DNA of 64,000 bases, taken from contig JAKZZE010000018.1 in the NCBI GenBank assembly GCA_024220505.1, forward strand, positions 744,001 to 808,000, given 5' to 3'. Below the pieces are notes generated by a model that saw nothing but the letters and a program-made list of their open reading frames with translations, had not been told where the DNA came from and searched no databases. Below are positions 5,440 through 58,958 of the stretch, in pieces. How positions within the stretch are numbered: the first letter of the stretch is position 1; the number at the start of each line of letters is the position of its first letter. This stretch comes from Rhizopus arrhizus. Its lineage: Eukaryota > Mucoromycota > Mucoromycetes > Mucorales > Rhizopodaceae. The position numbers and the translations under genes are program-made.

Positions 5440-8400
5440 CTAGTCCAATCGAATGGTAGGAACTCCTAATTTTACAAATCGTTTAAACATGCTTTGTCTC
5501 ATGTTGCTATATTGTTGAAGTGCCGCGTTCTTGACAACTGGTGACTGACTATCGTCACCAATAAGTACGATACGTTTTAAGCGATCCAAAATTTCTTTCG
5601 ATTCTTGTAGTTGTAAAAGAATAAATGTTTCTATTTCTAGCATCTGATCGGCCTCTAACACAACGATATTATTATATTTAAAGTTGCACTTAATAAGCTC
5701 AGGTCGTTTTAAAGCAGCGTGGGTACATGTCATACCAACAATCTTTGCCTCCTTTGTTAACAAGTAGTTGGCGCGATCATAATCATATCTTAAAAGTTCG
5801 AATGGTCTAATACCCTCTAATTGGCCAAATACATTGTCAAAATATCGTTTGCATCCACTTGCAGATTCAAGAGCTTCCTCCAGACTCATTGAGTCAGTAA
5901 ACACAGGCTTAGGAGCATGAGAAAAGAATTGAGCAAAAGGGAACGCATCACGAAGTTTCTCCACGGTGTCAATAGATTCGGCTGATTTTAAGAAGCTTTC
6001 CCAACGAGGCAAAACATGAACTTTATAAAAGTGACCAGCTGTTTCACAGGTAGAACCATGTTCACCAGGTACATTTAAAGAACGGGCAAGTTGATCAACT
6101 TGTTGTAAAAGAGAAATTCTACGCTCTAGAGTAGCAGGTATGCGGCTGTATTTACTGAAGCTAACTTCAGAGTTTAGCTCCTGCTCACCATGTCCAATGC
6201 GTATGAGGTGTCGAGATTGAACACCAAGTTCCACAACTATTTCGAATATTTTATCTAATGTTTCAATATTGCGGGTGATGATAAGTGTTCTTTGATCAGA
6301 GTAATTGCGATATAAGTTTGCAATAATTTGAACAGCAACTTCAGTTTTGCTAACATCAACATGACCCGCTATAGTCGTCAAACCATAATTCATTCCGGAA
6401 TAGATAGCTTCTGCTTGTGCAGGTGAAAAGCGAATTTGATTTTGCTTGTCATTATTTGAAGGGTAAGGGCCATCATTGGGTACTTTGTAGGATTCAACTT
6501 CAAATGTCTCGGAAACAGCAATTTTGGCTTCCGTTTTTTTGGATTTCTTTGATTTTTTGACAGGCTTTTGATCTTCTTCCATCGAATCATTGAGTAATTT
6601 GAGACGATAAGGTGGTTGCAAAGGCTGTTCCCCACCAGGAGCGGGTTGAACGTTTTTATCAGGGAAACTGCTCTTCAAATGATCCCAATCGAGGAAAGTG
6701 TCAATTAAATCAAACTTCTCTAGACGATCTGCCATTTTAGTGTAATGAGCACTGGATGAATCGCCATAACCTAAAAATATTTTGTGAAGCCATTCAGGGA
6801 CAGTAACGTCTGTCCCTGCTAAGTTTCTAATGGTTTCCAATACGGATTTGAAGTTGTTGTCTTCGGGTCTTCTACGTACAAGTACGTTGAATGTTGTATA
6901 AATATCTTCAGAATGTTTCTTGTTATATCTATCCATATCCCACTGAGAATATCCTTTAGCAGAATGCCAATTTTTATAATTTTGTATATTACCTTATATT
7001 GATTGGTATCCAATTGGACACGAATAGTACGCTCACTGCCTTTAATTTTATCTTTTCTATCTTCGGGATTTGGTCTAGATATTTCATCAATAGATCGTCC
7101 TAAACAAAGAGTTGTTTCTTTAGATAGTATTCATAATAATGATGCATTAATTATGTGTTACCATCAGCACCAATAAAATCAACAATTTCACAGCCACGAA
7201 TGTACTTGATACCATAATGCTCTCTAAAACTTTCACCACTGCTCATCATGTTTAAAGAATCTTCTGTTGCTTCGATGGATACTAAAAACAAGGTATCACA
7301 CTTGCGTAAAGCATCCCATTCATTACGCATATTACGCGCGTATGCACCAAGACTTATAGTGACCTAAAATAATACTACAAGTAAGAAACGATTTTAAATA
7401 TAAATGCACTTGATTTACATCAGCTTTAACATAAGCGGGCTTGTCTTCTCCAAGTTTTGCATCAGCAATATCAACAACACTATATAAAAATAAGCATTGA
7501 GCGATGTGCGTTTATATGTGATTTATCCACTATACTTGAACGATTGGATCAATGTAGCCATACGAGCTTTGCCGCCAAATTCTGTTTTGCACTCTGGAAA
7601 CTTCATTCTTGGTGACAATCTTTTCACTACATCTTCGATATCTCTTCTAACTTCACAGATGCTCCCAAGTCTAAAGAGAGTATGGTTTCTAAGCAAATAG
7701 TCATTGATAGTCAAGAACTGTAAATCCAATTTAGGCAAAGCAATGGACCGATCACCTCTGTAATTTTGTGTTTGAGTCAAACTATCATCAAATATGACTT
7801 TCTCATCAGGATACAATGGCTGATTGCTTATCTTCTTTATTTGGCTTTCCCGTTTTTCGTATTTTGCAACAAGTACATTGATCAAATATTCCTTTATATC
7901 CACGTCTATGTCAATCCCAACTGGTTGATTACGAATACCTAAGCTCTCACAAAGTTTCACAAGAGTATTTTCAGATAATGGTTTGAAATGCCACAATAAA
8001 TCTTCACGTGTTTCAATAGATGACAGGTTCGCTAAAGGAAGTTCCTTGATTTGCTCTCTAAACTTTCGAAAAGCGATATGCTATCAATACAAAAAAAAAA
8101 TGCATTTAGTATATTTTCAATGCTTGCTCTAGGTAATTATATTTACTTGTAGTTGAACAAGCTGCTGATAATGAGCTTCGATTATTGCAATATCTGTCAA
8201 GGCGACACCTGTTTGATCATTGACTTCGAATTTTGCGTAAAAGGACAAACTGTTCATAAGCTCTTTTAATAAATCAGTATCCTTGTTTTCTCTACGAGTA
8301 AACGGAGCCATTTGACATAGAACAATGACTTGGTGATCATCTAGTAGGGTGTTAAAAAATCTACGCGTTGGCAATCGAACTTCCAATCCAATTAAAAACT

Positions 8401-11987: not shown

Positions 11988-14535
11988 TCACTCAATTCCC
12001 AATGAAATACTAAGATCCTTTCCAAAAGACAATCTCGGTAAACGTGGAGGAGTGCCATTGTTTTGAGAGCTTGTGGATAGGGTTTCTGGGGGAGGAGGAA
12101 GAGGAGGAAGAGGAGGTAAAGGTAACGCTTCTTCATTTTCTTCATCATCACTGTCTTCAAGGTAAACTTTAGTTAATCTTCTATTTTTTGCTGATGATGT
12201 TGGTATAGGTGGCAATGATGCATTCATATACCAATGAATATGTGACGAGTTATGAGATTCTATGCTATTTTGACGCTTGATTGTGGTATAATAATCATTA
12301 TTGTAGTAGCCATTCATCATAAAAATTGAAGGTGTGTCAGAATCTGTAGTATGAGATAATGATCCACCTCTGGGAGGCATCACAGATGGACCCAGCTGAA
12401 ATGAATCCGCAGTAAGAGAAGAAATTGTAGATAATGCAATACGACGACGTATTGCGTAACTTGTACGTGGTGTAAGTAACGTAGAGGATGCGATAGTATT
12501 CATAGCAGGGGACATGGCGTTTTCGACAAACGTTTCTTCTACTTGAGAGCCTTGGAATTCTTGTTCTCTAAGGGGTATAGTAGCTGGCAATCCAGGAGCT
12601 GCACTAAAGACTGGAGAAGGTGGTCTTGATTGAAGCGTAAGATGACTTTTGTTAGTGGACAATGTAGCTGATGAACTAAGACTTGGGGCATTCATACTTG
12701 ATGCTTCTGAATGAATAGATTTTGTATCATCTTCCACCTGTTCTTTGCTTTTCTTTCTGTTAATATCTATTACCATGCTGTTGCTATCAGAAACAGTTTC
12801 ATTCAAGTCTTTTTCCATGATAGGGCTCGTAGTGATCTGTGGTGAATTAATAAAACTGTGATTTACTCTGTCAAGAGCAGGAAGAACATCTGAACCAGAA
12901 GATTCACAACTAGCGGATATTTCTACTGTTTCAAGCGGGTTTGGCAGTGGGGCACTGGGTGGAGGGTAAGCAGGAGTTTCTAATTTTCCATTAGCAAGAT
13001 CTACATTGATAGGAGATAGAGGTTTTCTGTATTGTCTCCTCATCGTGGGCGTCGTTGCTCTTGGTCTTTCTTCCTGTAGCCCCAAATTTTCTGGTGAGCG
13101 AGTTTCGTGAGAAACAGCAGCTGTACTAAGATCAAAAGCAGACGCAAATTTTTTGATGGAATTGCTTAGCCTTCCAGACCCATTGTTTAATGTGGGAGAT
13201 ACTGTTCTTTGCATTGAGGGATCTGGATGGTTGCCTTGACTAGTATGTGGTCTTTGATATTGTGGATCAAGAAACAACATTGATGTGGTTTTCATTGCTA
13301 GCATCTCATCATCATCGTCATCGCTATTAATAGGCATCATAGAGTTGTCTCTTAAAACACTTTCGAAATCTTTTTGAGTACTAATCTCAGCCGCATGCTG
13401 TGCAGATGCACGAGACTCTATCTTATACGGCAGATAGTCTGGGCGTGCTACTTCTTCAAATGCATATCGCATCATACTTTCGTTTGTTGAATCAGGCTCC
13501 TTTTGAGGGACTGAGGCAATAATGATGGGTATCTTGGCCTTGATTTCTTCATATTTTGAGCCAAACTGAAAAGTGACCTCAATTTGATGATAGATGGATA
13601 CTAGCGGAGATTCTATAGTGCAAGCTAAATAGGGATGAAGGCGGTGACGAACAAGACAGGGCCTTTTCCATGCTGATACATTTGAATCAGGATAATGAAT
13701 GAGTGCTGGTATAGTGCGTTTTCCATACTCTACATGGGAGTCTTTTAAATTGTTTGCTTCAGCTAATTTCCGTTCCAAATCAAAAACTAGAGAATCCATG
13801 TTGTACATGGAAAGATCTGTGTCAGATTTAGAGGGCGATTGGCGTCTTTGAATATAGAAATTTAGCATTTCTTATTTTTAAACTTGTTCAATGTTCTTAC
13901 TTGTAAAGTTCAATTTGAACCAGTTGCGTCCTAATACTTTGAACTGGCTTTTGATCGGCAAAACTAATGTATCTAATGGCCATTGGGATGTATGTTTGTT
14001 GTAAGCAAATGATTTGTGGTGCATCAATTTCATAGTGGAACTTCCCAGGAATGGTCCTCTGTGAAATCTTAGTTTCTATTATTGGTGTAAGCTCTTTGTA
14101 AGGTAGTAAATGGCGATGTATGACAATTGGGTATTCCGTAGTAATAATTTTTGTTAAACCAATAGCTATTGATAAAATTACTTTGTAATTGATGATGGCG
14201 CGTTTTGTTAATAAACTTCGAGGGTATATATTTGGTATGTCTATTTCCCAGGGTATAACATGGTCTCCTGCTGGTAAAGTGGTTTTTCCGAACAAGGAGA
14301 GCTTGAGCTTCGGTAAGAGAGGAACAGACATGGTGTGACTGGGTAAATTGACTTGACTAAAGCCTTTGAACTTGACTGACATATTTCTAATCTTTACTGG
14401 CTTGATTAACTTCAGTCGCACTTCGCCTTTTAAAATCCTTGTTGTATCGGTTGAGTTTTCTGATTTCGGTGGGCCTATAAAATCTACTTGGGCCTCTTTA
14501 GGCTCAATTTCTATAGACTTAAAGCCTTCTTTCAT
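11988..14535 (-). CDS. Alpha-arrestin (ARRDC/ART-type) adaptor
   Basis: Arrestin-fold adaptor, a class that usually links plasma-membrane cargo to ubiquitin ligases. Two exons (14535-13901, 13845-11988) joined over a 55-nt intron encode 830 residues. Residues about 15-160 form the arrestin N domain (LKGEVRLKLIKPVKIRNMSV, LPAGDHVIPWEIDIP). The arrestin C domain follows (HRHLLPYKELTPIIETKI, IPMAIRYISF) and continues across the intron to about residue 290. The remainder is serine-rich and disordered, with a proline repeat (LPPLPPLPPPPETL) near the end. I see no PPxY motif, so recruitment of a Rsp5/Nedd4 ligase, if any, is not obvious. A start at 14667 is possible, but the added residues are an unlikely hydrophobic stretch. 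Confidence 0.85.
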
Positions 14536-14810
14536 GTCAAAAAACTTGGATTTTATTAATTGAAAAATTGTGGCAATTTTTTTGAAAAAAGAAAAAAGGG
14601 GGGAGTATAAATAGAAGGGAAATAATGTTATACAAGAAAAAGAAAGAGAACGAGAGAGAAAAAACAAAAGTTAGAACGAAATTAAAAAGAAGTTTAAGTA
14701 AATATTTGTGTGTCACCTTGCGTTGGGATAAAAAAAAAAGAGCGAAGGTTGCACTTGGTAGAACATTAATTTTTTTAAATAGGTTTCTTTTTTTATATAA
14801 ATCTTAAGCA
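14536..14810. promoter_or_regulatory. Shared divergent promoter, arrestin and ALG12-glutaredoxin
   Basis: 275 bp between two divergent start codons, rich in purine runs on the plus strand. A TATA-like stretch (TTTATATAAAT) lies just before ATG 14811. No other regulatory site is claimed. Confidence 0.4.
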
Positions 14811-16657
14811 ATGAAGCTCGTGCTTGGGTGCCTGTTCGCTTTAATTGCTCTAGAAATATACTATGCCCCATTTACGAAAGTAGAAGAAAGTTTCAACTTA
14901 CAAGCAACCCACAACATTCTCAACCAAGTTAAACATTACGACCATCTTGAGTTCCCTGGTGTTGTGCCGCGAACTTTTGTGGGTGCAATGCTCTTAAGCG
15001 CTCTTTGTTGGCCATGGACAAAACTAATTCCTTCAATCACTTTGTTCGATCAGCAAATTCTTGTTCGTGCCACATTAGCCGCTATCATTGTTCTATCACT
15101 TGGGCAGTTCTCTCAAGGAATACGCGTTCTATTCAGTAAAAATACAGCAATCATCACCATCATGCTCATTGTCTGTCAATTCCATTTTATTTTTTGGTCT
15201 TCTCGAACTTTACCAAACACTTTAGCTTTACCCTTGGTTCACTTGGGACTGTCCCACTGGCTTAAAAGCATGGCACAAACCAGCGACCGTGCTTTTCATC
15301 TAAGACAAATGTCTCGATACCTTACCTTTGCTGGTATTGTGTTTAGGTTTGAGGTGGGGATCCTTTTGGTTATTTTGATATTCACAGAATGGATTTTTAG
15401 TCGATTTCATTTGATCAGTATAGTGAAGACAATAACGGCCACTGCATTACTTAGTTTAATCACCACTGTACCGCTTGATTCATACTTTTGGAATCAATTG
15501 CTTTGGCCAGAGGGTATGGTATTCTATTTCAATGCCATCTTAAATAAGAGCTCAGAGTGGGGAACGCTTCCATTTTACGCATACTTTACGAACTTTTTGC
15601 CACGATTGCTCCTTATTTCATATCCACTTATGATCGTTGCTTATGCCCGAGATGCTCGTGTTAGACGTGTACTCTGTCCTATGATCATTTACACTCTTGT
15701 GTTTTCTCTTGTTCCTCATAAGGAATGGAGATTTATTATTTATACTGTCCCTGTATTCACCGCAGCAGCCGCTACACAAGTAAATGCACTACTGATTTAT
15801 CAACGTCGATCTTCCGCCGGCCGTTTTGGTTTACTACTACTTACAGGTGGTATACTAGCCTCATTCTTTGCTTCACTCATCATGTTTCAAATTTCTTCTC
15901 TAAACTATCCTGGTGGACAAGCACTGAAATCATTGCACATGATTGATGAAAGCACACCCTTCGTTTCTGTGCATATAGATGCCGAAACAGCCATGACCGG
16001 TGCGTCGCTTTTTGGCCAAACAAACACAAATTGGAAATACTCTAAAAATGAAAAACATACCACAGAGGAAGATTTTATTGAAGCACGATATACTCATATT
16101 TTGACAGCAAATCCTGAAAAGTTTAATAGCTCCTTATTTGAAACAGCTCATGTAACTTACGGTATTGGTAGCATCCAATTGATATTGCCCAACAAGATTT
16201 ATCAAGATACAGGACCAAAGAAAGAAATTATCAATCTTTTCGGAATAGTACGTTTAGAGGTGGCATTGAGGCCCAAAATATACACACTTCGAGCAATTTA
16301 TTCGCAAAAGACTTGGGTCCAAGCTTTGCTACGCAAATACCCAGTTATACTTTTTAGTAAAACGTATTGGTAAGTGAGACATACATTTGCTCATGTGTGC
16401 ATCTGTTTATTAACCACACTATTAGTCCTTACTGTAAAAGGGCTAAGCAATTAATTGCCAGATATTCAAACAGCATAAAAATAATTGAAGTCGATTTAGA
16501 GGAAAACAGTCGGGATATCCAGTTGGCTTTGCATAGCATCTCTGGTCAATACACATTTCCTAACCTTTTCATTCATAGCCAAAGCTTTGGTGGGTTTGAT
16601 AACCTATCAGAGTTGGATCGACAAGGGAAGTTGTCCAAACTCTTTTTAGAACAATAA
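14811..16657 (+). CDS. ALG12: ALG12 mannosyltransferase fused to a dithiol glutaredoxin domain
   Basis: N-terminal 520 residues are a GT22 mannosyltransferase of the Alg12 type, which adds the alpha-1,6-mannose to the lipid-linked oligosaccharide in the ER lumen. Landmarks are YYAPFTKVEESFNLQATHNI, EFPGVVPRTFVGA and VPHKEWRFIIYTVP, with many membrane helices. The frame reaches LLRKYPVILFSKTY and then a donor at 16370. Joining 16369 to 16426 (56-nt GT-AG intron with a TTAAC branch) yields FSKTYCPYCKRAKQLI, the glutaredoxin active site. The rest of the fold follows: TFPNLFIHSQSFGGFDNLSE with the TVP-like and GG glutathione-binding elements. The spliced product is 596 residues. Without splicing the frame ends one codon into the intron as SKTYW-stop, giving ALG12 alone. 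The FSKTY segment belongs to the glutaredoxin fold and is encoded in the ALG12 exon, which argues for a true fusion. Confidence 0.85.
16370..16425 (+). other. Intron linking ALG12 to the glutaredoxin domain
   Basis: GTAAGT donor, TTAAC branch-like site and TTAG acceptor. The stop codon TAA overlaps the donor (TGG TAA), so splicing decides between ALG12 alone and the fusion protein. Phase 2; the spliced codon TG|T restores the first active-site cysteine. Confidence 0.8.
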
Positions 16658-32604: not shown

Positions 32605-35600
32605 ATGTCTTCAGAAATTATATTATCAACACAGAAAACTTCTGGTAGACGAGGCAGACCTAGAAAGCACCCCTTAGATACCGACAAATTATTAAAACAA
32701 CAAGAGAGAAAGCTACTTAGATTACAGCAGCAATTAGAAGAACAGAAAAGAAAATTACAGCAAAAAGAAATATATTCACTTGAAAACAAACCAAGAGAAG
32801 AATGTTCGTATAAAGACTTTTATCCCGATCTCAACATTAGAGAACCCTTATCAATTGTCATAAAATCGCCACCTACATCTATTGCTGAGGCAGAAAAATC
32901 AAAAGAGGCAGATCCTTTGAAATCACCTACTTCAGATGAATATGAAACAGCTTCAGAAGGAGAAGAAGCTGTTGAAATCGCGAATCCGATCATCAATCAA
33001 CAACGTAAATTACCCATTCCTTCTTTTCAAGTAGACACCACCCATAACAGTGGTAACAATGAATTACCGATTTTTAAGAGACCTGAGAATCATTATATTC
33101 GATATACAGGTATCTCTTGGATAAATGATTTGATATCGGTTGTTTCTTATAAAAAAGTCTATTAGAGCCTTCAGAAAGCCAATTACTTAATACAATTGAA
33201 TACGACATGGATGAACAAGGTAATATATTATTTATATGCGCTTGTAAATGTATAACCTTTTTTTTTTTTTCATAAAAAAGATGAGATATGGCTCAAGATA
33301 CTGAATAACGAACGAAGGAAGGAAAAATTGGGTGAATTAACCGCAGATTTATTTGAAAACATTATTGACCAATTGGAAAAAGAGTGGTTTGATCTTGTAA
33401 GTTTTTATTATTGTCATTATTATTGGCGCATTTTATTTATGCAATTTTACTTAATAACAGGTTAAAAATTTACCCAAGAGGGTAAGTGAAGAGCTTACTT
33501 TTCCTGAAGATTCAAAATGCGCAATTTGTGACGACGGAGAGTGTGAAAACAGCAATGCTATTGTATTCTGTGACGGATGTAATCTAGCTGTTCATCAAGA
33601 TTGTTACGGAGTTCCCTATATTCCAGAAGGTCAATGGCTTTGTAGAAAATGCATGGTCTCACCTGATAAACCAGTTTCTTGTATATTCTGTCCAACTGAA
33701 GGTGGTGCCTTTAAACAAACTACAACAAATCAGTGGGGACATTTGCTATGTGCTATTTGGATACCAGAAGTCAGTTTGGGCAATAGCGTTTATATGGAAC
33801 CCATTGATAACATTGCAAACATCCCGAAAAGCAGATGGAAATTGACCTGTTATATTTGCCGACGACGCCAAGGAGCGTGTATACAATGTGATAACAAGCA
33901 CTGCTTTACTGCCTTTCATGTCACATGTGCACGATGGGCTCGTCTTTATATGAAGATGAAGCCACCTAATAGCCATTATGATGATGTAGCCTTAAAAGCT
34001 TTTTGCGATAAACATACACCAAAAGACTATAAAGAACAAATTGACGTTAGTAAAAGTATTGCAGCAGCACAGCAATGGTTCTTAAATCAAAGACATAAGA
34101 AAAGGCAACAAATGCCGCGTAGAAGATACGTTGATGAAGAATTGGAAGCTGATAGTAGCGATAACCCTATTGAAGATAATGTACAGAAGAAAAAGTCCAA
34201 GAGAAAACGAAAAAATTCTGTCACCCAGCTCTTATCAACTTCTAAAGCTGCACGTGCTCACCAACATCATTATTCTGCAGGAGCCCCAGTTGCTCCACAA
34301 TATATTATGCATAAATTAGAAAACATGAAGTGTGTTCGTGAAGCTAATCTGCGAAAGAAATCCTCACTGATTAAGAGCGTATGTCGATATTGGTCTCTTA
34401 AACGAGAGTCAAAGAGAGGTGCTCCTCTACTTAAGCGGTTACACCTTGAGGTAATTACAGTGATATATGTTCATACTGTATCTTATAAAATACTATGTAT
34501 TTAGCCTTGGACCGCTTCAGCATCTCAGCTTAAAGAATCCGAAGTGGAAGCTGCGCAGAAAGCCTCGGTAATATATACATATTTATAAATGAACTCTATG
34601 GCTAAACTAGTGCTTTTTTTATATGTTTAGTCTTTGATGAACTTACGCTCTGATTTGGAGAAGGTTAGAATATTGACAGAACAAGTTCAAAAAAGGGAAA
34701 AGCAAAAATTGGATAGAGCACGTAAACAAAAGGCATACTTGGAGTTGATATTGTTTCCACTAGACTATGTAATTGGACCTGTTCTTGATCAAATTTCAGA
34801 GTAAATTTGTTTTGTTATAATTATAATATGATGTATTGATCAATTTTCTACCTTAGCTTGGATAAAAACGGAATATTTAGATACCCTGTAACACAAGAAA
34901 TAGCACCGGATTATCAAACTATAGTGAAAGAGCCCATTTCATTTTCAGAAATAGCAGATAAGATAGAGTCCCATGCGTATACCGGCTTTGATCAATTTGA
35001 GGTAAGATATATAACATTGTGAGTGAATCGGCATAGATACTGACTTTAATTAGAATGACGTATCATTAATATGGAAGAATTGCATGACATATAATAGATC
35101 AGATACTTCTTATTATAAGCTAGCACAGCGTTTAAAAAGGGTGTCTGTGGGCTTAATAGCAAAAGCTAGAGAGGCATATGAGGCACTGGACACCGATAGA
35201 CAAACCGGCTTCTTAAATGTTCAAGTTGATTCAGAAATATTTGCATTTGGAGATGATGAATCACATAGCCATGTGTGCGTTGAACTTAACCAAAATTCAG
35301 ATGATTTAGCTAAAGAAAATAAACCTAATACAATTGAAAACGAGAAAGATCAGCAATTGGAAGAAGAGAAGGAGGATGATGAACAAAGTGCACCTGATAA
35401 TGAGCCATTGACTCCTCCTCCACTAAAACCTACAGTTCATGCAAAAGCTAAATTACCAATCAAGCGTAAAGCTACAACTAAAAATACAGATGGGCCTCCA
35501 AAGAAACGCAAAGCTTTTATCAATCTTGTACAAGATTTGCCAGACAAATTCAAAATATCAAACACTCATCGGTTTTCTATGGAGCGTCGTTTAACAAGAA

Positions 35601-38126: not shown

Positions 38127-40839
38127 ATGAAGTCTTTTATCGTTCCTTTTCTTGTTTCCATTTGCTGTTATACAGCAAAGGCAGCCTTTGTTAATAAGAG
38201 TGACTACACGGAAATCCAACGATTTTTATCAACCATGTTTGTTAACGAACCTCCCCCAGCACTTTTCCCCAGTATTTCACATCCGTATCCGCCTATTTAT
38301 GCAGACCTTGAATCTGAAGAAGTTGTTCCAACAAACTCATGGCTTAGTAACTTATTTTATCCGAGTGTCCAAAACTTAGCACCCACTACACCTGATCCTT
38401 ACATATTAAGACTTTTGGATGATTTTGGTGGAAATCCTGGCTTATCTATATCTCAGCCTTCAACAAAAGTAATAAAAGAAAAGCGAAATAATCAAGAAAG
38501 ACATTGACAATGATTACATTTATTGTAGGTCATAGGTAGATACCAAACTACGAATAATGTACCTGAAACACCCGCAGGCTATATTATAAACGGTGTCGTT
38601 GTTGATCTTCGAATTACTTCAGCAGAATGGAGTAATCACCAACCAGTACCTACAGTTACCAGTTGGGATTTATTTGGAGCAAATTTGAAGTTAGCTGCCT
38701 CAAATGGATGTATACAATTCCCAATTGCTAGAGGAATGCCCTTTGTTACTGCTATTTATGACAATTTAACACCACAATTTTTTACACAACACGCAATCTT
38801 AAAAATTAATGGTAAAGATGCACAAAACGCTGATACATTTACAGGAAGAAAGTTCAAATTATCATTCAATGACAACCCCACAAGCACCTTCCTTATCTAT
38901 GCTTTAGGCGAAGAGCCCTTAAGTTTGAAAAAGGTTGGACATAATAATCTTATTGCAAGTGGCATATACAGTGGCCTTATTCAAGTAGCAAAATTACCAA
39001 GCGAAGAAGGTGAGGGTACTTTAGATGCTAGTACAGGTATATGGGCCACTGGCGGTGATCTGGACTTAGACTTGGAAACGTAAAATAAAAGTAATATAAT
39101 GTGAGAATAGGTAAACTGACATGCATTCCAATTCTTTAGAAATACATATAAAATACAATGGAAGACTGAAGGCAATCACTCCAAAAAGTTGTTGACATAC
39201 GCATATCCTCATCATATGAAATCTTTTGTTCGAAATGGTGATATAAAAAGAACCAACTTAAGATTATTGTCATCTACAAAAGGACATATGCATGCAGTAG
39301 TCGGTAACTCTTGGACCCTTGCAGAGAAAGACCTGAGTACCATTGAGTGGTTCCCTCCTAATCCAGCGCCGGAGAAAACTACTCGGAATGAAATAATGGA
39401 AACTATAGTATCAGATGTTCAAATGAACTATACAAAGGAAACAATGAAAGGAGACAACTATTTTTCTGGAAAGGGATTACAGAAACTTGCTATGTTGGCC
39501 TTAATGTTAAATAAGCCAGAGATGACTTTTTTAAGAGATAAAGAGTTAGCGCAAGAGGCCTTAAACAAGATTAAAATGGCAATGATACCCTATATAGAGA
39601 ATAAACAGCAAGATTCTTTCAAATATGATAGGGTTTATAAAGGTATTGTGGCTAAAGGAGGATTACCAAAGGAAATGGGTGGTACTGGTGATCGGAATGC
39701 AGCATTTGGTCATTCATACTACAATGATCATCATTATCATCAAGGTTACCTTATTGTTACAGGTAAAGAAATAATAGTTTTTAAACACACAGCTGATTCC
39801 ATGCTTCTATTAGCTGCCATTATTCATTATCTGGATCCCTTATGGAGAGCTATACAAATCAAAGAATGGACCGAAACTCTAATTCGAGATGTCAATTGCC
39901 CACTAAAAGACGATCCTTATTTTGCTCAATTCAGAAATTGGGACTGGTTCGCTGGACATAGCTGGGCTGGGGGTATAAAAGTTGGTGGAGCACTAGATGG
40001 CCGTGATCAAGAATCTGTTCCAGAGGTGAGTTAATTAGTGAGCAAATAGCAGCAAAAAAAAAAAAAAAAAAAAAACTGAAGCCATTACCTCTTTTCGTGT
40101 AGTCAGTGAATTTCTACTGGGGTACAAAGCTTTGGGGACTAGCAACAAAAAATGATGAACTAGTCAAATTGGCGAACTTGCAACTAGCAGTTACAAAACG
40201 AACAGCCTATGAATATTTTTGGATGCTTGATGGAAATAAAAACAGACCTGCAGAGATGGTGAAGAATAAAGTAGCTGGGATTTACTTTGAACAAAAAGTT
40301 GATTATGTAAGAAATTTAAAAGGAGGTGAAATGGCACTATTTATTAATCCTTTTTTAATTGTTGCAAGACTACATACTTTGGCAGATATCTAGAATATAT
40401 TCACGGCATTCAACAACTTCCAATGACACCCATGCTCGGATATTATATAAGAACACCTGAATTTGTAGGTTTTATGATTTTGTGAATATATTTGGTATTA
40501 ATGCATTGAGCACAGGTAACTCAAGAGTGGGAACAAAAACTTAAGGATATTGCACCTACTGTAAACAATCCATGGGCCGGTGTCCTTTACCTTAATTATG
40601 CAATGGTGAACCCTGCAGAAACATATCCTATATTAAGAAGTGTCGATATAGATGATGGACAAACAAGATCGTACTCTCTTTACCTTGCAGCAACGCACCC
40701 TGACTTTTATAGAAGATGTAAGAATAAGTAAATTCAATAAAACAGACTACATGACTAAAGTGAATTTCATAAAATAGCTATTTCAAAGTATCTTGCAGAA
40801 AAGACAGGAAAAATATCATCGAGAAAACAAACCGTTTAG
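38127..40839 (+). CDS. GH81 endo-1,3-beta-glucanase, secreted
   Basis: Secreted endo-beta-1,3-glucanase of the Eng1/Acf2 family, used in wall remodelling and septum or spore release. A signal peptide ([19 protein letters not shown]) starts the protein. Exons: 38127-38468, 38529-39079, 39140-39762, 39814-40025, 40103-40306, 40369-40464, 40516-40721 and a last exon up to TAG 40839. Active-site regions are [19 protein letters not shown] (catalytic Asp) and [19 protein letters not shown] (catalytic Glu region), with [20 protein letters not shown] downstream. The C-terminus has two readings: a GTAAGA donor at 40722 spliced to 40785 gives the tail [18 protein letters not shown], and no splicing ends the protein at 40731 as CKNK. 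I prefer the spliced form. Total about 770 residues. Confidence 0.9.
40054..40075. repeat. A22 mononucleotide run in a GH81 intron
   Basis: Within intron 40026-40102. Confidence 0.95.
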
Positions 40840-43309: not shown

Positions 43310-44921
43310 TTATTCTTTAAAGTTACGTTCACATTTGCGCACCCATCTTCTTCTTCGTGTCACATATTGCTCTGAATGTGAGTGCTTATTAATTCTTGGA
43401 TTTTCCCAATTATTGTCTGTGTATACCCATCCTCCATTCTCAAGTGTAACAACAACTTCTAGAAAAAACAATAAGTGATAAAATAAAAATAAATAAAACA
43501 AGTACCAAGATTAAGTTTCTCATCTATCCAAGGACCAACTCCATCCAATCTCCAGTTGTCCTCTACCCAATGATATCCTTTGGGCGCGGGAAATTCTTCT
43601 TTTGGGCCATATTCGACTGTTCCTGAATAGTTTGTCCACAACCCACGCTCATCAGGAAGCATCTGTTAAACAATGTAAGCAAAAAGAATAAAGTTACATC
43701 TCTCTTTTTTACGTGGGGAACAAAACCACTACCAGACCACCAACGCTGATTCTCATAGAGTGACATTTCTTGGATATTGGCTTGATCATTCAAATTTTTT
43801 TCTAGTTGCAAGTACCATTGGAGAATGTTATTGAATTGAGACTGTCCCACATCGGTCAACTGGGGCATGAGCTCCTTCAGCAGATATTTTGTAAATCTAG
43901 TATTCAGTAAAAAGGCACACATGCCACCCACCAAGAAGATGATATTTAAAGGAATGAGCCAAATAGTGAAACAGAGAATAAAAAAAGACACCAAAGTTGC
44001 TTGAAATATATGCATTGTTTTGCCTTCTGAAGACCAATCAACGTGATGAGCATTAGAGGCCACTAGATCATAAAGATCGCTCATTTCTCCCATCATGTTT
44101 TGTAAGTTTTGCATGTTGCGGAGATATTCTGGTGAGGATTCATCAAAGGCAGGAAATAATGTGGCTGTAAAGTGTTCAAATCTCTTGCTACTACCACTAA
44201 TGGATGCTTGCTGTTGTTGTTGACGTCTTTTATTATAGCCAGTAATAAGTATATTTATAAAGATAATGTGTGGTATCAGTAATAATAACTTTGGATAGAG
44301 ACCTATTATGAATATATGAATTTAATTTGTATTAATGATTCTTTTTTTTTTAAAAAAAAAGAAGTGGTTACATAGCAAACAATAAATAAATAATGCAGCG
44401 AGGGTATCAGTAGGTTTATCCCAACTTAATAACAATATCACATTATCTCTAAAGGTAAACATTGGTCCACATCTTGAAACGAACCTGGAAAAGTTCTTTG
44501 CTGTATTTTGTGGATTAAGAGGTGGTAAATTAGCTAAATATTCATTAGTAGGTTGTGTATTATCTGATGCATTGATGGCTGCAGAAACAAGTATATTTTG
44601 AAATTCTTCTGAGCCTGCGATATTTTTAAGTTTAGAAAGTGAATCCTTTTCTTGAAGAGAGCGAAGGGATTTGGTAGCTGGTGAATCTAAATCTGATTTA
44701 ATTGGTAGTTTGGTTGTTTCTTCTTCTACTGTTGCTGTTGTTGCTGTTATAGTTTGTTGCTTTTTACAAGTAATAACTTTATTTTGACATTGAAAGTGAC
44801 AGACGATACCACAGTCTATACAACGACTACCCTGTTTCACTAGACCCCACAATAGACCTTGGCACTCATCACAATAAGTTGGTCTAGAAAAAGTATTTAC
44901 TTTAAATGAATGTGAAGACAT
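43310..44921 (-). CDS. C1-domain plus Pex24/DysF membrane protein (PEX23/PEX30-like)
   Basis: Four exons (44921-44372, 44302-43713, 43662-43506, 43458-43310) encode 481 residues. Residues 3-52 form a C1 zinc finger of the diacylglycerol/phorbol-ester type: HSFKVNTFSRPTYCDECQGL, then CIDCGIVCHFQCQNKV. A linker leads to the Pex24p-type region (RCGPMFTFRDNVILLLSWDK) with several hydrophobic segments. The C-terminal dysferlin (DysF) domain is marked by ENQRWWSGSGFVPHMLPDE, GYHWVEDNWRLD and GGWVYTDNNWENPR. Pex30/Pex23-type proteins shape ER subdomains where peroxisomes and lipid droplets form. The added C1 domain suggests recruitment or regulation by diacylglycerol, which is inference. Its neighbour makes lysophosphatidate, a diacylglycerol precursor. 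Confidence 0.85.
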
Positions 44922-45104: not shown

Positions 45105-46625
45105 TTATTCAAACAAAGGTTTTCCGTATTCTACTAAGTATTTTGCATTAACTTCGTTTTCCTTGGCCAAGTCAAGCACAAGTTCTCTGATGTGGTCTCT
45201 ACACCAGTGACGCAAATTGGCACAATCTTCCAATGGCTTTCTTGTTGATCGACTTAGGTTGAGAATAGCAACGAATATACGCCAAGAAGCAATAGCCTGC
45301 TTCAACATGTCATAATTTTTATCAATCAAAGCCATATGATACCAAGCGAATAAAGGTAATAATAATAATACGCATAGTAAACTAACCAGCCTGTATCCAG
45401 TCAACTTCCAGAGCATAAATATGAGTGAACCGTAAACTGGAAATGCTAAAATGACTGAAAATATGAGTTTATCTTGTGCAACTGATTCTGTGTAGGGTTC
45501 ATAGGAATCAACTAATCTTCCTAATAGATAAAATGGTGAATTGATGATTATTCCAGGTAAGAAAAGGGGTATCTGAATGAGTAAAGATATCCAAGTTGAT
45601 ATTAATCTTAAACTTGCTTTGGTTACTGTTATTTGTTGATTTTCATACATGCTGATATCCATTGCATTCAATCCAAGTTGTTCCAATTGATTATTAAAAA
45701 GTAACAATCTCTTCTTCAATTCCATACGTTCTTTTCGATACAAACATTTTTCATCATTCAACGCTTCGGGATGAAACAGTGCAATAAAGCTATCATTAAA
45801 TAAAAATAAATAAAAATTATACAAATTTCTTCATGTATTTCACCTTTGAGATACATGAACGTAATCTTCAAGTCTAACTCCTCGAGAATCACCAAATAAT
45901 ATAAACCTGGCTTGTTTAGCCGCATTTGTTACATCCCAATCTGGACTATTTATAGTACTACGTTCAACACCTTTTGCAATACGATCTGTCAATTTCTTTA
46001 CCGTTGTCTTTGGATCATCATTAAACTCTTCAAGATCACGGAAAGTTTGTTCAATAGGCTCACCGTATTCAACTACAACTTCACTTCTCCATTTGTTTTT
46101 TGTGCTGTATGTTATTCCCACAGGTATGATTGAGATACTGTCATGTTGTCGATCTTCTTTAGAAGCAAGTTGTCCGAGATATTCAAACGCGGCCCATGAG
46201 ATACCATCTTTGAAAGGTAAATGGTTGGGCGCAGTATATGACGTTCCCTCTGGAAACAAAGCAACTACTGCACCTTGATCAAGTGATTGTAGCGTATGTT
46301 CAAATAACTTGGCATTACTGTGAGTTTTTGTATCGACAGGTAGTACACCAGCTGCTTCTAATACTTTGCCAACAAGCGGTATACGAAAGAATCGAGCTAA
46401 AGCCCAAAAGTGGCAAGGTCTCGAATGCGGAAATGTGGCGATAAGTACAATAGGATCCAGCACCATGTTGGAATGGTTGGCTGCAACCAATAAAGGTCCT
46501 TCTGCAGATATAGGGACTTTACAAGTCACTTTTATTTTGCGAAAGTAAGCCCATAGAGCAAGCCTTGAAAGATATTGTAGTGTAATGTATGTTTTTCCTT
46601 CTCCTTGTCTTTCAAAGGAAGGCAT
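45105..46625 (-). CDS. Glycerol-3-phosphate O-acyltransferase (Gpt2/Sct1 type)
   Basis: ER acyltransferase for the first step of glycerolipid synthesis, acylating glycerol-3-phosphate (and often dihydroxyacetone phosphate). Exons 46625-45844 and 45789-45105 give 488 residues. Family motifs are ANHSNMVLDPIVL (block I, NHxxxxD), KVLEAAGVLPVDTKTHSNAK, ALFPEGTSYT (block III) and SIIPVGITYS (block IV). The second exon carries two or more membrane helices (IQIPLFLPGIIINSPFYLLG and later segments). It is shorter than yeast Gpt2/Sct1 (about 740-760 residues) because the long phosphorylated C-tail is missing. Confidence 0.9.
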
Positions 46626-48095
46626 ATATATTGTTACTAGTATATAAAAAAAGTGAAAAGGAATAAAAGGCTCATTTTAAAAATTTTATTGCAAGCTGAG
46701 TGCTAAATATCATGTGATTCAGAACTATTATAGACTTCAATTATCGCATTGTAGAGCTGTAATCGCACATATTCCAACATGTTTGTAGTAATTCGTATGT
46801 CAAATTGCCGTAACTGAATATAAATCTAACATTATGATGTAAATAGGTATGGTTTTCTTTAATGGTTTTATCTTGCCTGGAAATCCCTGGTTTGAATTGG
46901 ATAATAGAATGTTTTACCTCTTGTTCCTAATAGATAGAAAAACACTCTTGGTTTCACCAAAAATATGAAACATTTAAATTTGATGAGCATTTAATAGCAA
47001 CATGCTACCAATTATAAACACATTCAGTTTTTTTTTTTGTTTGTTAAAAAGTCTGTGTTCACCCCTTAAAAAGCAGAAACAAATAGATAAAGTCGGATCG
47101 TTTTTGATTTATAAACTATAACTGTAACTGATATTGTTATTAATCTATGCAGTACTTGAACTTTGTTTAGACAGCTTAAGCAGTAATATGTCTACAAGAA
47201 AGGCATGGTATTATAATTAAGTTGGCAGTAATTTATGGATAAATTGTCTGTGTCTTTTACAGTAATTAACGATAACTGGCTTTTTTTTTACAATACAAAT
47301 GAATACGGAATCTTTCATGATAATTATTTAAAAAATACAAGGAAAAATGCATTGTCTATGGATGATAACCATGTCTTTTCAGAGTGGTAGTTTCCCCAAG
47401 ATTAATACTTATTACACATTTTAGATTCACTGCTAAAAAAGAAAAGTGTCTATATTCATATCCACGCGTTTTGCCGATATTACGCGATCATATGAAGGTG
47501 GAATTAAAAGAATAGATATTACCCAAAAAGGAAGAAAATAAGGCAACAGAAAGCTTTATCTGTCACTTCGTATAGCATTATCTCCTTGTTTATCTACTTG
47601 TCTTTAAGATACTACCATGGATGCAATAAGCATAAAAAAGAGTCTACATGTCTATAATCATAAAATACAGTGGTACGTTATTTTTCTTATGTTATTGGAC
47701 ATGGCTACAACGATAAAAAATAATTTAAGGAAATAAAAAAACAAAGACGCGCATGTTAGTTAACTTCAAAACGCACTTTTTTTAAGCTTTATTATGAAAC
47801 ACAAGAACAAGTATTCCTGCAGGGAAATAATGGTAGAAAGGGTGTATCTTTAAGAAATTGTGTGTGGTCTCACTGAAGTTTTCGAATGATACGTAATGCC
47901 TTTTTTTTCTTTGAAACTGGACTACATAGAGTATACTTTTAAGGAACGCATGGGATTTCAATCATTTAATATCTTTTGCTTAATTAAACAATGAAAAATC
48001 TAGAAGAATGAGTTCACTTAGAGTAAACTTGGTTTATATTTATATTAGGTTTGTGCATAAAAAGCTTTTGTGTATGCAAAAAACAAAAAGGAAGA
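46626..48095. other. Intergenic region, 1.5 kb
   Basis: AT-rich with no open frame of note on either strand and no RNA gene that I can recognise. It contains the acyltransferase promoter and the 3' end of the bystin-like gene. Confidence 0.5.
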
Positions 48096-52652: not shown

Positions 52653-55600
52653 TTAATCGAAATCGTCTTCTTGTGCAAGATAAGTCGCAACTTCCTTGCG
52701 AATCAGTGCCAGGGCTGCATTTGGTACAAAGTCCTGTTGACGAAAGATGCATTGCCAGTGTAGCTTCCATATAGCACTCAAAGAGATAATGAGCACTATG
52801 TCACCATCGAGCTTAGGGTTCAAGCAATAAGATACCTCTGAAAAATCTAGGGAATAAAGGGCATGTCGAATTTTGGCGATGTCAAGCGTTGGCCACAGGA
52901 ATTCTCGGATGACTTCTTGCCAGACAAGGTACTTGAGAGGACAGGAGAAAAAGAAGTGATCGATGGAGTCAATCGATACAACGCAGATGGAACAGTAAGG
53001 TGAGATATCTGGTCTAGAGAGTAGGTGATATAAGCAGTCCTTATGAGGAATCTTGTGGTGTATCAGACGATAAATAACGTTTCTTTGGATGCAGGTGAGA
53101 GATAGCGACCAAAAGGCTAACCAATTGGCACAGGAAATTGTAGGATGGGTAGCTCTGCGATTGTATGCTGCCATACAAGTTTTCCGGAATATTTTTGTAT
53201 TAACGTGTTGAAAAGATTTACCAGAAGGAAGATGAAATTTGAGACAGTCAATGAAGCTGGTAAACAAGCCAGGTGAAGTGTTACCAAGTGATGGAGAAAT
53301 ATCAGAATTGGTGCTAGAATAACAATGTTTACCAAAGAAGTAAGAAATTTGAAGGCTACCAGAAGCTATGGCTCGAATTAGCTTGTTCACACCTCGCCTA
53401 TAACGCTGGTCGATATTGTCTATGGTTCGGCGTTGTATTATATCCAATTCGCTGTTGTACATAAAAACATCGCTAACTGACATGTCTTTACAGATCCTGG
53501 GGAACCGAAAGGAACCAGTGGAGCTGACGAGTACTGCTTGTATAGGAAGGAGTAGGCAAGCTTGGGGATTACGACTCATTCCCCCAAAATCCCGGTCAAT
53601 CAAATCTAAGGATTTTACTAACATGTTACAAGTGTAAAGGAGCTTGGGCTTATAGGTAACCCGCCCTTCCTTGAGCAATAATGGTATCTCGTGGTATGGA
53701 GTACGAAAAGAGTTCTTCAAATGTATCCGTAAGCACAGAGAAACTGTCGAAGGACGATTACCTTGGTGGAGAACCAAGTTTATCCATTTAAAGTAGAGAG
53801 CTGCCTGTTGAATTTTAGGGTCCAGAATGCCCAAACCGCCTTGTTGTTTAGGTGAGCTGAAGATATTCCAAGAGAGCTTAGGGAATATATTTGTATTGAC
53901 AAATCGGGAGATCACTGTTCGAATGCGAGAGATATCTTCATCGGGGATTGGGGAAACTCGTAACAGATACCAACATTTGGCCAAAATGAGTGAATTTGCA
54001 ACCGTTGCTCTACCGAGGACTGACAGGGACCGAGTCGAGTGTAAGGAAGTGAGATCTTTTAGTTCTTGAATAAATCTAGTCATGTAGGATTTGCGTTGAA
54101 GCAGCGATTGCCAAAGCGGAAAGCCAAGGTATGTCACCGGCTCAGTCTGGGAGGGGAGATGAATTGACGGTATGCCCATCTCTTGCAAAGAGTTTGACCA
54201 GTAGGAGGAGTGATCTCTACCTGACATAGAAAGTGTTTGAACTTTGTTATAGTTGATTTTGGCGTTGGAAGCTTGACTGTAAATATGCAGGAGTTGGTTC
54301 AACCGATTGAGGTCGCGGAGATCGCGCACGAATACAATCGTATCGTCCGCATAACATAAGAACTTTATGTTTACCGACGTATGAGGTTCTTGAGCTATTC
54401 GTAATTCCTGAAGAGTCTCCAATGTATAGCCAGAGAATTGCGAATCCTGTGTAAACGACCGCAAGAACGGTTCCAAAGCGATGTTATACAAAATTGGTGA
54501 CAGAGGGTCACCTTGCTTTAACCCCCTTTTCTTTGGAATATCCCCAGAAAGGAAGCCATTGAGATTAACCTTGATTGTATTATTAGCCATCAAGGAAACC
54601 GTGGACTGTATAACTTGGGGAGGGAAGCGAAGTGCTGTCAGAACCTCCCGAAGATAATCCAAATTTACACGGTCGTAGGCCTTTTCCTGGTCGAGGAGTA
54701 AGGCTAGGGACTTGTCTTGAGGATTGTTGCAATCAGCCGCATGCTCCATGAGAATTTGAGTGATCAATCCGTTTTCAGCAATATAACGACCAGGAATAAA
54801 TCCAAGTTGGAGTGGATTTATAATACCAGAACAAACTCGCATGAACCTTTGGTTAATGATCCGGGTAAATATTTTGGTGTCAACGTTAACCAAGGAAATG
54901 GGACGGTAGTTTCGAAGTTGGGATAGGTCACCTTTCTTAGGGAGCAAGGTCATAATTGAGGTGTTCCATGATGAAGGGAAAAGGCTGTTTTCTAGTGCCT
55001 CATTATATACCTTAATAATTAAGGGGTGTAATAGAGGACACTCCATAACCAGATTAAGGATTTCATATGGTAGCCCGTCGCTGCCAGGGCTGCTCTTTTT
55101 GGGTGAGCGGCGACTATGTTGAATGATATCTTCGACGATTATCGGTGCTGTAATATTGTTTTGTTGGTTCTCACTTAGCTTAATAGAATCCGGGATGTTG
55201 GACAAGAGTCGCTGCAGCGCTGAATGTTCTATAGGGTCGGGGGAATACAATGTACTGTAGAAAGTTTCAACCGCTTCATGTTTGCTATCTTGGTCATAGC
55301 ATATATCACTAGTGGTTGGATGCTGTAGAACTGGTATGTATCGCTGGGTTTCCCTAGTTTTAATCATCCTCTTAAGAAAGCCAGGGGACTTTTCATTGTT
55401 TTCACGCCAAAATTTTCCAGCTCTCAGGCATTCAATCTCTGCAATAGCATCCTGCAGGCAGCCAATCTGTTGTTCAATTTGTGGTAGAACGGCAGAGAGA
55501 ACATTGTAGTTCTTGTACTGTCGAAGAATACGGTTGCGCTTGCTTTGTAATTTTTTCAGTTGTTTTGTCCTCCAATTGTTTTTCTCGATTTGGTACCCTC

Positions 55601-56525
55601 GAATGAAGAATTTAATCCTGTCTTTCAGCCAGTCCCACTGTTCCTGAGGGGAGAGATGGTTTGACGACGACAGCTGGACATGTAATTTTTCCAAATGATC
55701 ATTAAAGGTTTCTTGAAAGCGTTTTGATCGAGCCAAGTAGGGGTTAGCTTTCCAAGCACCTGGGCCATTATCGAAAAGTTGGAAGGAAATGGTAACAGAG
55801 AGCATGGAGTGGTCGGTCCAATCACTGTTAAGGAAGCCTTGTGATTTTTCTTTCACCTGATGAGTTAAGGATTTATGGCAGTATATGTAATCTAGCCGAG
55901 ATGAGTGGGTACCACGTCGAAATGTTACTAGAGCATCATCGTAAAAACAGTCTTCATACCACTGGTGAAGTAAGGGTAGCCAACTGTTAGATATAGTCCC
56001 TGGAAGGGAGGAGGATGGGGAGGTGTAGTTGTAATTAAAGTCCCCCATTAAAAGTAGATTGTGATGTTCCGAGTAAAGAAGATCGTGGATGAAAGGAATA
56101 GTTGTCAATTGAGCAAAGTAAGAAGAGCGCTCTTGACGATCCGCTGGAGCATATAAATTAAAAATATGAAGGATGGCATGTGATTGATTATCCGTAGAGT
56201 CGTGTGTAGTTGAATGTATGGAGGGTACGATCGAGGCAAAGATAAATCTGCCATCAATACCTGTGTATATATCATGTATGTCAAACTTTTTGTTTAAGGA
56301 AAGAATGCCACAATGTTTAGACCAAGAGGCAGAATGGGTTTGAAATTTCTTGTTAAGTGAGTCTTGAGTAGTAATGTCTGATGCGTGTGTTTCTTGGAGT
56401 ACTAAAATATCCATATCACAATTTCTTAGAAAGCGTATAAATTTTTTTTGTTTTTCTTGATTATTAATTTTTGTTAGGCCACGACAGTTTAGTGTGGCAA
56501 TTTTAATGTTATGCTGATATAACAT
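52653..56525 (-). CDS. LINE ORF2: endonuclease-reverse transcriptase
   Basis: 1290 residues. The N-terminal APE-type endonuclease shows IKIATLNCRGLT, LVLQETHA, LLMGDFNYNY and SDWTDHSML, the expected Asn/Glu/Asp/His catalytic positions. The central reverse transcriptase shows RNYRPISLVNVDTKIFTRII, LLLDQEKAYDRVN, GLKQGDPLSPILYNIALEPF and the YADD box (FLCYADDTIVFV). The C-terminus has a CX2C-X7-H-X4C zinc knuckle (CSIC ... DHFFFSC) and LVWQEV. It starts six bases after the ORF1 stop (TAA-TTTTA-ATG), a spacing that suggests translation by termination and reinitiation. No stop or frameshift is seen. Confidence 0.93.
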   Translation of the reverse strand: MLYQHNIKIATLNCRGLTKINNQEKQKKFIRFLRNCDMDILVLQETHASDITTQDSLNKKFQTHSASWSKHCGILSLNKKFDIHDIYTGIDGRFIFASIVPSIHSTTHDSTDNQSHAILHIFNLYAPADRQERSSYFAQLTTIPFIHDLLYSEHHNLLLMGDFNYNYTSPSSSLPGTISNSWLPLLHQWYEDCFYDDALVTFRRGTHSSRLDYIYCHKSLTHQVKEKSQGFLNSDWTDHSMLSVTISFQLFDNGPGAWKANPYLARSKRFQETFNDHLEKLHVQLSSSNHLSPQEQWDWLKDRIKFFIRGYQIEKNNWRTKQLKKLQSKRNRILRQYKNYNVLSAVLPQIEQQIGCLQDAIAEIECLRAGKFWRENNEKSPGFLKRMIKTRETQRYIPVLQHPTTSDICYDQDSKHEAVETFYSTLYSPDPIEHSALQRLLSNIPDSIKLSENQQNNITAPIIVEDIIQHSRRSPKKSSPGSDGLPYEILNLVMECPLLHPLIIKVYNEALENSLFPSSWNTSIMTLLPKKGDLSQLRNYRPISLVNVDTKIFTRIINQRFMRVCSGIINPLQLGFIPGRYIAENGLITQILMEHAADCNNPQDKSLALLLDQEKAYDRVNLDYLREVLTALRFPPQVIQSTVSLMANNTIKVNLNGFLSGDIPKKRGLKQGDPLSPILYNIALEPFLRSFTQDSQFSGYTLETLQELRIAQEPHTSVNIKFLCYADDTIVFVRDLRDLNRLNQLLHIYSQASNAKINYNKVQTLSMSGRDHSSYWSNSLQEMGIPSIHLPSQTEPVTYLGFPLWQSLLQRKSYMTRFIQELKDLTSLHSTRSLSVLGRATVANSLILAKCWYLLRVSPIPDEDISRIRTVISRFVNTNIFPKLSWNIFSSPKQQGGLGILDPKIQQAALYFKWINLVLHQGNRPSTVSLCLRIHLKNSFRTPYHEIPLLLKEGRVTYKPKLLYTCNMLVKSLDLIDRDFGGMSRNPQACLLLPIQAVLVSSTGSFRFPRICKDMSVSDVFMYNSELDIIQRRTIDNIDQRYRRGVNKLIRAIASGSLQISYFFGKHCYSSTNSDISPSLGNTSPGLFTSFIDCLKFHLPSGKSFQHVNTKIFRKTCMAAYNRRATHPTISCANWLAFWSLSLTCIQRNVIYRLIHHKIPHKDCLYHLLSRPDISPYCSICVVSIDSIDHFFFSCPLKYLVWQEVIREFLWPTLDIAKIRHALYSLDFSEVSYCLNPKLDGDIVLIISLSAIWKLHWQCIFRQQDFVPNAALALIRKEVATYLAQEDDFD

Positions 56526-56530
56526 TAAAA

Positions 56531-58000: not shown

Positions 58001-58002
58001 GA

Positions 58003-58010
58003 TATCTTTA
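58003..58010. repeat. LINE target-site duplication, 5'-side copy
   Basis: TATCTTTA followed by TTTTTA, then the first base of the Tc1/mariner-like terminal repeat at 58017. The match to the other copy can be extended through the T run. Confidence 0.65.
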
Positions 58011-58016
58011 TTTTTA

Positions 58017-58107
58017 CAGTGCTTCCACTCTCATTTTACCGAATGTTTGAAAACTCCGCCCACTTTTTTGAGAATAATTGACCGGGAAAAAGAGACTAAA
58101 TTGCCCA
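58017..58107 (+). repeat. Left terminal inverted repeat (91 bp)
   Basis: Pairs with 63390-63480. The first 17 bases are identical, about 8 of the first 64 differ, and both repeats end in CTAAATTGCCCA. Just inside it, a TTTTCAAAATAAATTAACC unit occurs twice (58109-58150). Confidence 0.9.
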
Positions 58108-58184
58108 GCCTTTTCAAAATAAATTAACCAGCTTTTTCAAAATAAATTAACCTACTTTTTGTATTTTGAATTTTTCTTTTAAAA

Positions 58185-58940
58185 ATGAATTTTTACTACG
58201 AAAATGGTAGAGGCAATATTGTAGACGATTCTGGAAATGAACCAGACGCTTACTTGGTCGAGCCTTCATTTCGTTTAACCAATTTGACGAATTTAAAAAA
58301 ATACATAAAAAACAAAAAGGTACCGATCGAAGATGAAGCAAATGACGTTGAAATGAAGGAAGCACCAACAAAAAAAGAAAGATTCTCTACGTACAACACC
58401 TATTCAGATGACGACCATAAAAGATATTTCTATTTTATTAAGGAGAAACTCATGACTCCCTCTCAAGCAGCTAAAGCTGCCAATGTTCAATATGAAACTG
58501 CTCGAAAATGGAAAACGGCCAACGAAAAAAACCCCGAGGAGGGTATTCCTCTTAAGAAAACAAATCGCGTAAACAGGCCTGTGAGTAAATTGAATGAAGA
58601 GCATAAGACCTTTATACAAAACTTTTTTGACGAAAATAAAACAGCTGTTATACAAGACGCTGTTGAGAGCTTGACAAAGAACTTTGAGGGCTTGGAAATT
58701 AAGAAGAGTAGAGTTGCTGAGTTTATGAAGGAAGACTGCAACCTCACTATAAAAGTGGTCACTCGCCATCCTAAGCGAAGAAACTGCAGCGATACGTTAG
58801 AGAAACGTGCCCAGTTCGTAAAAGAGTGGACGGAGAAGGGCATGCTTTTTATGCAGAACTGTGTGTTTATTGACGAGTCTGGCTTCGATATTAACATGCG
58901 CCGCTCAAGAGGTTGGTCAACGCGAGGAACTCAAGCAGTT
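58185..58940 (+). pseudogene. Transposase, N-terminal half (HTH and first DDE aspartate)
   Basis: Starts at ATG 58185. It contains a helix-turn-helix region (MTPSQAAKAANVQYETARKW) and the first catalytic block FIDESGFDINMRRSRGWSTR, where Tc1/IS630 transposases carry the first Asp. Transposase similarity stops after GTQAV at 58940; the sequence that follows belongs to the cargo gene read on the other strand. The second half is at 62829-63281. A stop closes this frame at 59084. Confidence 0.8.
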
Positions 58941-58958
58941 TACATTTATACGGTATTT

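Follow-up and report, generated by a model that had tools for sequence, protein, structure and literature searches.

The locus described here raises the question of whether an ALG12 mannosyltransferase of the endoplasmic reticulum (ER) and a glutaredoxin are encoded as one protein and, if so, on which side of the membrane the redox domain would lie and what it would do there. The window, that is, the whole stretch of DNA that was analysed, comprises 64,000 nucleotides of Rhizopus arrhizus (contig JAKZZE010000018.1, positions 744,001 to 808,000 of the forward strand). The features of the gene are as follows.

14811..16369, plus strand: exon 1, an open frame covering residues 1-519 and the first two bases of codon 520; it encodes the ALG12 (GT22) module and the opening helix and strand of the glutaredoxin
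14811..16301, plus strand: ALG12 module, residues 1-497, a GT-C membrane fold whose C-terminal part contains more strands
14877..14894, plus strand: KVEESF, containing the EE acidic motif; it follows the first membrane span and, by homology, lies in the first lumenal loop
16302..16654, plus strand: glutaredoxin domain (residues 498-596), encoded by 16302-16369 and 16426-16654
16368..16435, plus strand: active site CPYC (residues 520-523), formed when 16368-16369 meets 16426-16435
16370..16425, plus strand: phase-2 intron of 56 nt, GTAAGT...TATTAG, read from the sequence and with the same point marked in homologues
16371..16373, plus strand: TAA read on intron retention, giving a 520-residue product
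16426..16657, plus strand: exon 2, the remaining glutaredoxin and the stop TAA (16655-16657), from the sequence and a PF00462 match

The ALG12 frame opens at the ATG at 14811 and stays open until the TAA at 16371-16373. The splice sites are TATTG/GTAAGT (16369/16370) for the donor and TATTAG/TCC (16425/16426) for the acceptor; the intron thus interrupts codon 520 (TG/T), which encodes the first cysteine of the active site, after its second base. When it is removed, the frame continues through SKTY-CPYC-KRAKQ to the TAA at 16655-16657, giving a product of 596 aa instead of the unspliced 520 aa. The length of the intron, its donor and acceptor and the overlap of the TAA with the donor were all as the earlier note had described them. 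That 16369 is joined to 16426 we infer from the frame and from homology. In the spliced frame, Pfam PF03901 (Glyco_transf_22) matched residues 9-399 (E=4e-42, 145.3 bits against a cut-off of 23.8) and PF00462 (Glutaredoxin) matched residues 512-572 above its curated cut-off (E=8.5e-14); exon 2 by itself also matched PF00462 in the genome profile scan (E=1.7e-7). Profile searches of the genome placed GT22 matches on contigs 7, 10, 23, and 31, the window gene being that of contig 10, and gave 10 glutaredoxin matches, one of which is the window gene.

The earlier note had proposed looking for GT22 and glutaredoxin domains in one protein of related fungi, and the search was successful. Both Pfam domains were present in 38 of the best 120 of 2277 matches (36 of them named, from 33 species); for this listing, only the 7996 candidates sharing the most words were scored. 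Among these 120, the fusion occurred in the Mucorales (Rhizopus, Mucor, Phycomyces, Absidia, Lichtheimia, Syncephalastrum, and others) and, outside them, in Umbelopsis isabellina and U. ramanniana of the Umbelopsidales. The closest database protein among the matches listed was 98% identical and annotated as Rhizopus arrhizus, and the aligned homologues were 35-77% identical to P0001. Some database rows carry the source tag "lgn", which we take to denote assemblies of read archives. With 38 of the best 120 of 2277 homologues showing the domain pair, chance and misassembly are excluded, and the junction of the two frames claimed in the earlier note is confirmed as a real architecture at the level of reading frames and homologues.

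Meanwhile, no glutaredoxin annotation was found among the best 120 of 2277 matches in the ALG12s of Jimgerdemannia, Glomeromycotina, Mortierella and its kin, Coemansia and its kin, chytrids, or animals, the Endogonales being represented by one species (Jimgerdemannia, P0071). The non-fused ALG12s with visible ends stop near the ALG12 C-terminus, except those of insects, which have other long tails. A narrow search with the glutaredoxin region alone returned 8 proteins from 71 candidates, all of them fused rows already known. The Endogonales branched off before the common ancestor of the Mucorales and Umbelopsidales. A single gain in that ancestor, after this split, is the most economical history. 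It should be noted that five Mucorales rows without the domain were not scored as losses: P0027, P0028, and P0067 are by reading short or partial models, and P0022 and P0040 are annotated models ending at the intron.

The literature searched, with subscription papers, preprints, and supplements outside its scope, held no description of this fusion, and the word glutaredoxin has no occurrence in the main texts of PMC7928374, PMC8778642, and PMC7563561. The novelty put forward in the earlier note therefore stands in part: the architecture is undescribed in the literature searched, though the precomputed Pfam annotation of public proteins already displays both domains.

By profile and by predicted fold, the added domain is a glutaredoxin, with a site and binding residues like those of the class I dithiol type and a putative glutathione-dependent oxidoreductase activity. 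We compared 41 fused rows, namely 40 database rows (some being second models of one species) and the window. The active site reads CPYC in 31 of them, CPFC in 4, CPYS in 2 (P0006 and P0048), and CSYC, SPFC (P0034), SSEC, and SVEC in one each, so that Cys-x-x-Cys or Cys-x-x-Ser is kept in 38 of the 41. We take the glutathione-binding positions to be K, T-x-P, and G-G-x-D; counted in the rows, all six letters are complete in 39 of 41, and the window has them all together with CPYC. The domain shares CPYC, the glutathione-binding residues, and the fold with the class I dithiol glutaredoxins (yeast Grx1/Grx2, plant GrxC1, and human GRX2) but differs from them in being tethered to a polytopic ER enzyme.

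Most fused rows also have an extra pair of cysteines, the first located where the helix that follows the active site ends, the second in the tail. Both are present in 36 of the 41 rows and neither in four (the window, P0001, P0002, and P0077); in P0008, with its truncated end, only one of the two can be seen. For comparison, we used 113 mostly plant stand-alone glutaredoxins with a readable motif, i.e., the best 120 of 1916 matches minus 7 set aside: P0122, P0128, P0129, P0139, and P0213, which resemble frames from the second exon of a fused gene, and P0182 and P0219 (CPFA). None of the 113 has the pair; the helix cysteine occurs in none and the tail cysteine in one. Of the five second-exon-like frames, four carry both cysteines and P0139 neither. 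In human GRX2, a tail cysteine takes part in a structural disulfide. The pair may form a structural disulfide gained after the fusion, which would suit an oxidising lumen; the window gene lacks it.

The origin of the domain was approached with an unrooted tree of 53 hand-picked rows: 27 fused rows (the window and 26 of the 40 from the database), 11 GRX6-like rows, one of them L005 of the same genome, and 15 plant C3/C4-type or cytosolic-type rows; P0182 was lost. The fused and GRX6-like rows separated from the 15 plant or cytosolic-type rows with a support of 98/83, which places the fused domain with the fungal GRX6-like rows. The fused rows did not form a single clade in the best tree, which takes 2 changes, and one clade was not rejected (p-AU 0.196); GRX6-like rows may fall among them. 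A hydrophobic stretch precedes the domain in 6 of the 11 GRX6-like rows (peak 1.59 to 2.37), while four others are partial or without such a stretch and one is short. Kinship with the GRX6-like secretory glutaredoxins is probable.

The yeast GRX6 and GRX7 are ER/Golgi membrane proteins, and GRX6 has been suggested to modulate lumenal glutathionylation (PMC5053157, in excerpt). In the accessible part of PMC4765768, the GRX6 clade of Rhizophagus irregularis includes Mucoromycotina homologues; the R. irregularis GRX6-GFP gave an ER pattern in yeast, some cells also showing signal in the cytosol, and R. irregularis GRX6 failed to relieve the peroxide sensitivity of the yeast grx6 grx7 mutant. Besides their place in the tree, the fused domains share with GRX6/GRX7 a probable secretory setting and, mostly, the TFPN motif. 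They differ in that GRX6/GRX7 (CxYS) are monothiol C-x-x-S proteins, whereas most fused rows read CPYC and only 2 of 41 CPYS, and in having no N-terminal membrane anchor of their own, as the domain directly follows ALG12 at residue 497. A separate GRX6-like gene with an N-terminal hydrophobic segment, CPYS, and introns near the active site was observed in the same genome (L005, about 1250-1900), which indicates that the fusion is no simple replacement.

We consider it likely that the gene encodes one ER membrane protein made of ALG12 and a lumen-facing dithiol glutaredoxin, in which ALG12 serves as the anchor and address of a GRX6-like glutaredoxin. Residues 1-497 would hold the protein in the ER, and the last ~100 residues, with an intact active site and set directly on the ALG12 C-terminus, would lie in the lumen. 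There, the glutaredoxin could use ER glutathione to deglutathionylate proteins or reshuffle disulfides at the site of glycan assembly, the candidate clients being glycosylation enzymes or new glycoproteins. That a GRX6-descended lumenal glutaredoxin, stabilised by a newly gained disulfide in most species, acts at the glycan-assembly enzyme and couples ER glutathione to glycan completion or to glycoprotein disulfides we put forward only tentatively.

The proposed arrangement has parallels in the oligosaccharyltransferase (OST) with Ost3/Ost6 and in Htm1/EDEM with their PDI partners. OST carries thioredoxin-fold subunits with CxxC (PMC7563561, in excerpt), and the alpha-1,6 mannose exposed by Htm1/EDEM trimming, for which these enzymes work with PDI partners, is the signal for ERAD (PMC7835635, in excerpt). 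Taken together, these cases make the pairing of glycan enzymes with thiol chemistry a known theme. Ost3/Ost6 and MAGT1/TUSC3 likewise place a lumenal thioredoxin-fold CxxC on the N-glycosylation machinery (PMC7563561, in excerpt), but they are separate subunits acting at the transfer step, whereas the present fusion joins a glutaredoxin to an enzyme of glycan assembly. Htm1-Pdi1 and EDEM-PDI similarly tie a mannose-handling ER enzyme to an oxidoreductase (PMC7835635, in excerpt); however, they trim protein glycans, and the PDI partner, instead of being fused at the gene level, is bound through a disulfide and other contacts. Throughout the lineage, the fusion would join the assembly of lipid-linked oligosaccharides covalently to glutathione chemistry, probably on the lumenal side of the ER; if the proposal is true, one fungal lineage wired glutathione redox chemistry into the eighth-mannose step of the ER.

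A different role for an active domain would be the regulation of its own ALG12: the glutaredoxin would sense the glutathione redox state of the lumen and alter mannosyl transfer, so that assembly would follow ER redox. The predicted fold (overall pTM 0.87), in which the modules meet at residue 497 with almost no linker, is consistent with this, as are the retained catalytic residues. We nevertheless regard self-regulation as unlikely, because the ALG12s of other lineages (best 120 of 2277) lack the domain.

The domain might also be a passenger that aids the folding or stability of the ALG12 tail and does no redox work. Several observations point this way. In Cunninghamella (P0077 and P0078), the domain is decayed: the catalytic cysteine is gone, SSEC and SVEC stand in place of CPYC, and most glutathione-binding residues are lost, although P0078 retains the extra cysteine pair. 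R. microsporus P0013 (11 member sequences) ends before the domain, which may reflect domain loss or a cut by another intron or by the frame limit. With these rows, the glutaredoxin domain looks dispensable. In comparison with the window protein, the conservation of the glutaredoxin also falls short of that of the membrane part in 8 of 10 rows, the gap being 1.5 to 21.5 points; the glutaredoxin equals or exceeds the membrane part in P0002 (78.4% vs 77.9%) and P0010 (64.0% vs 61.9%), and the glutaredoxin is more alike than the preceding 85-residue stretch in 9 of the 10. The active-site cysteine and the glutathione-binding residues kept in 38 and 39 of the 41 rows, respectively, make a mere passenger improbable. 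The natural variants, i.e., Rhizopus without the extra pair, Cunninghamella, and the possibly domainless R. microsporus, make the role testable by comparison.

The reading of ALG12 as anchor of a lumenal glutaredoxin depends on the side of the membrane, which the earlier note had named as decisive. Residues 1-497 are ALG12, with a predicted activity as the alpha-1,6-mannosyltransferase acting on Man7GlcNAc2-PP-dolichol: the best structural match was ALG12 rather than ALG9 (chicken ALG12, 9S6T), and the folds of both modules were predicted confidently. The fused protein differs from an ordinary ALG12 (GT22) in the about 100 extra residues that form the glutaredoxin. In the excerpted text of PMC6801728, the ALG12 model has 11 spans with a cytosolic N-terminus and a lumenal C-terminus, and a functional role is given to the acidic motif that closely follows the first span. 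Under the 11-span assignment, the mean K+R per residue was 0.108-0.349 in the five cytosolic loops and 0.043-0.168 in the six lumenal ones, with loop limits set after viewing the structural model and with overlapping ranges, as EL5 (0.168) exceeds three cytosolic loops. The hydropathy scan gave only 9 peaks over 1.4 as against the 11 spans assigned. One peak (1.45, residues 48-66) adjoins helix 57-72; the lumenal assignment requires that this helix does not cross the membrane, since a crossing would flip the C-terminus and place the glutaredoxin in the cytosol. The published 11-span model with its lumenal C-terminus (PMC6801728, in excerpt), the charge bias of the loops, and the GRX6-like closest relatives in the tree all argue against this, and we consider a cytosolic domain very unlikely. 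The glutaredoxin thus probably faces the ER lumen.

The earlier note had further described a stop built into the intron, with retention giving ALG12 plus a fragment of the fold and splicing giving the bifunctional protein; this might be read as a regulated switch between plain ALG12 and the fusion. The TAA does sit at the donor, the retained-intron product (520 aa) includes the complete 497-residue ALG12 module, and 21 homologous rows (best 120 of 2277) end exactly at SK[TS]YW, which places the intron at the same codon across the group. However, the stop needs no special cause, because a phase-2 GTAA donor always writes TAA next. Moreover, of the 26 homologous frames that reach the intron point, the 5 others do not stop there: P0044, P0046, and P0051 stop 2, 8, and 26 residues later, and P0036 and P0034 continue for 85 and 100 residues. 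An RNA with a stop upstream of the normal one might be degraded. The designed switch was not borne out and was rejected as an explanation of the stop; a regulated switch of this kind keeps only a slight probability.

The Syncephalastrum row P0034 continues in frame into the glutaredoxin, by reading with the intron retained in the annotation. The public models P0022, P0028, P0034, and P0040 stop at the intron, shorten before it, or translate through it, and the fusion seems to be mis-annotated in several species. No intron interrupts the frames of P0002 (596 aa) or P0008 (579 aa, with a cut end that reads by eye as Illumina adapter); these frames would fit spliced RNA or may reflect genomic intron loss. 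The idea that the intron is a fossil common to the stand-alone glutaredoxins was rejected, as the positions are near and not equal: by reading, the intron lies downstream of the fused-gene position by 2 bases in L006 and by 3 bases in L005. Common descent with sliding is possible.

Finally, that two separate genes were read as one, through a glutaredoxin start of its own or a misassembly, is scarcely credible, as no in-frame Met follows residue 395 of the 596, which led us to reject a stand-alone glutaredoxin gene and rules out, as far as the frame goes, the separate start considered in the earlier note, and as 33 named species have both domains within a single protein, annotated or read (best 120 of 2277).

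The other genes of the window include a divergent upstream gene (11988-14544, minus strand) of two frames with weak matches to the arrestin N- and C-domains below the Pfam cut-offs, which looks like an arrestin-related adaptor. Further Pfam matches in the window are listed below.

1526-2878: ankyrin repeats
5443-6993: Aquarius insert/AAA
24743-26104: HSF-type DNA-binding
33458-34504: PHD fingers
39120-40034: glycosyl hydrolase 81
43566-44321: Pex24p
45843-46676: acyltransferase

Towards the end of the window, a 1306-aa frame (52653-58030, minus strand) reads by eye as a LINE-type endonuclease/reverse transcriptase and adjoins a 499-aa frame with zinc-knuckle motifs. A frame at 58170-59084 (plus strand), for which Pfam gave no family match, reads by eye as a Tc1/mariner-type transposase.
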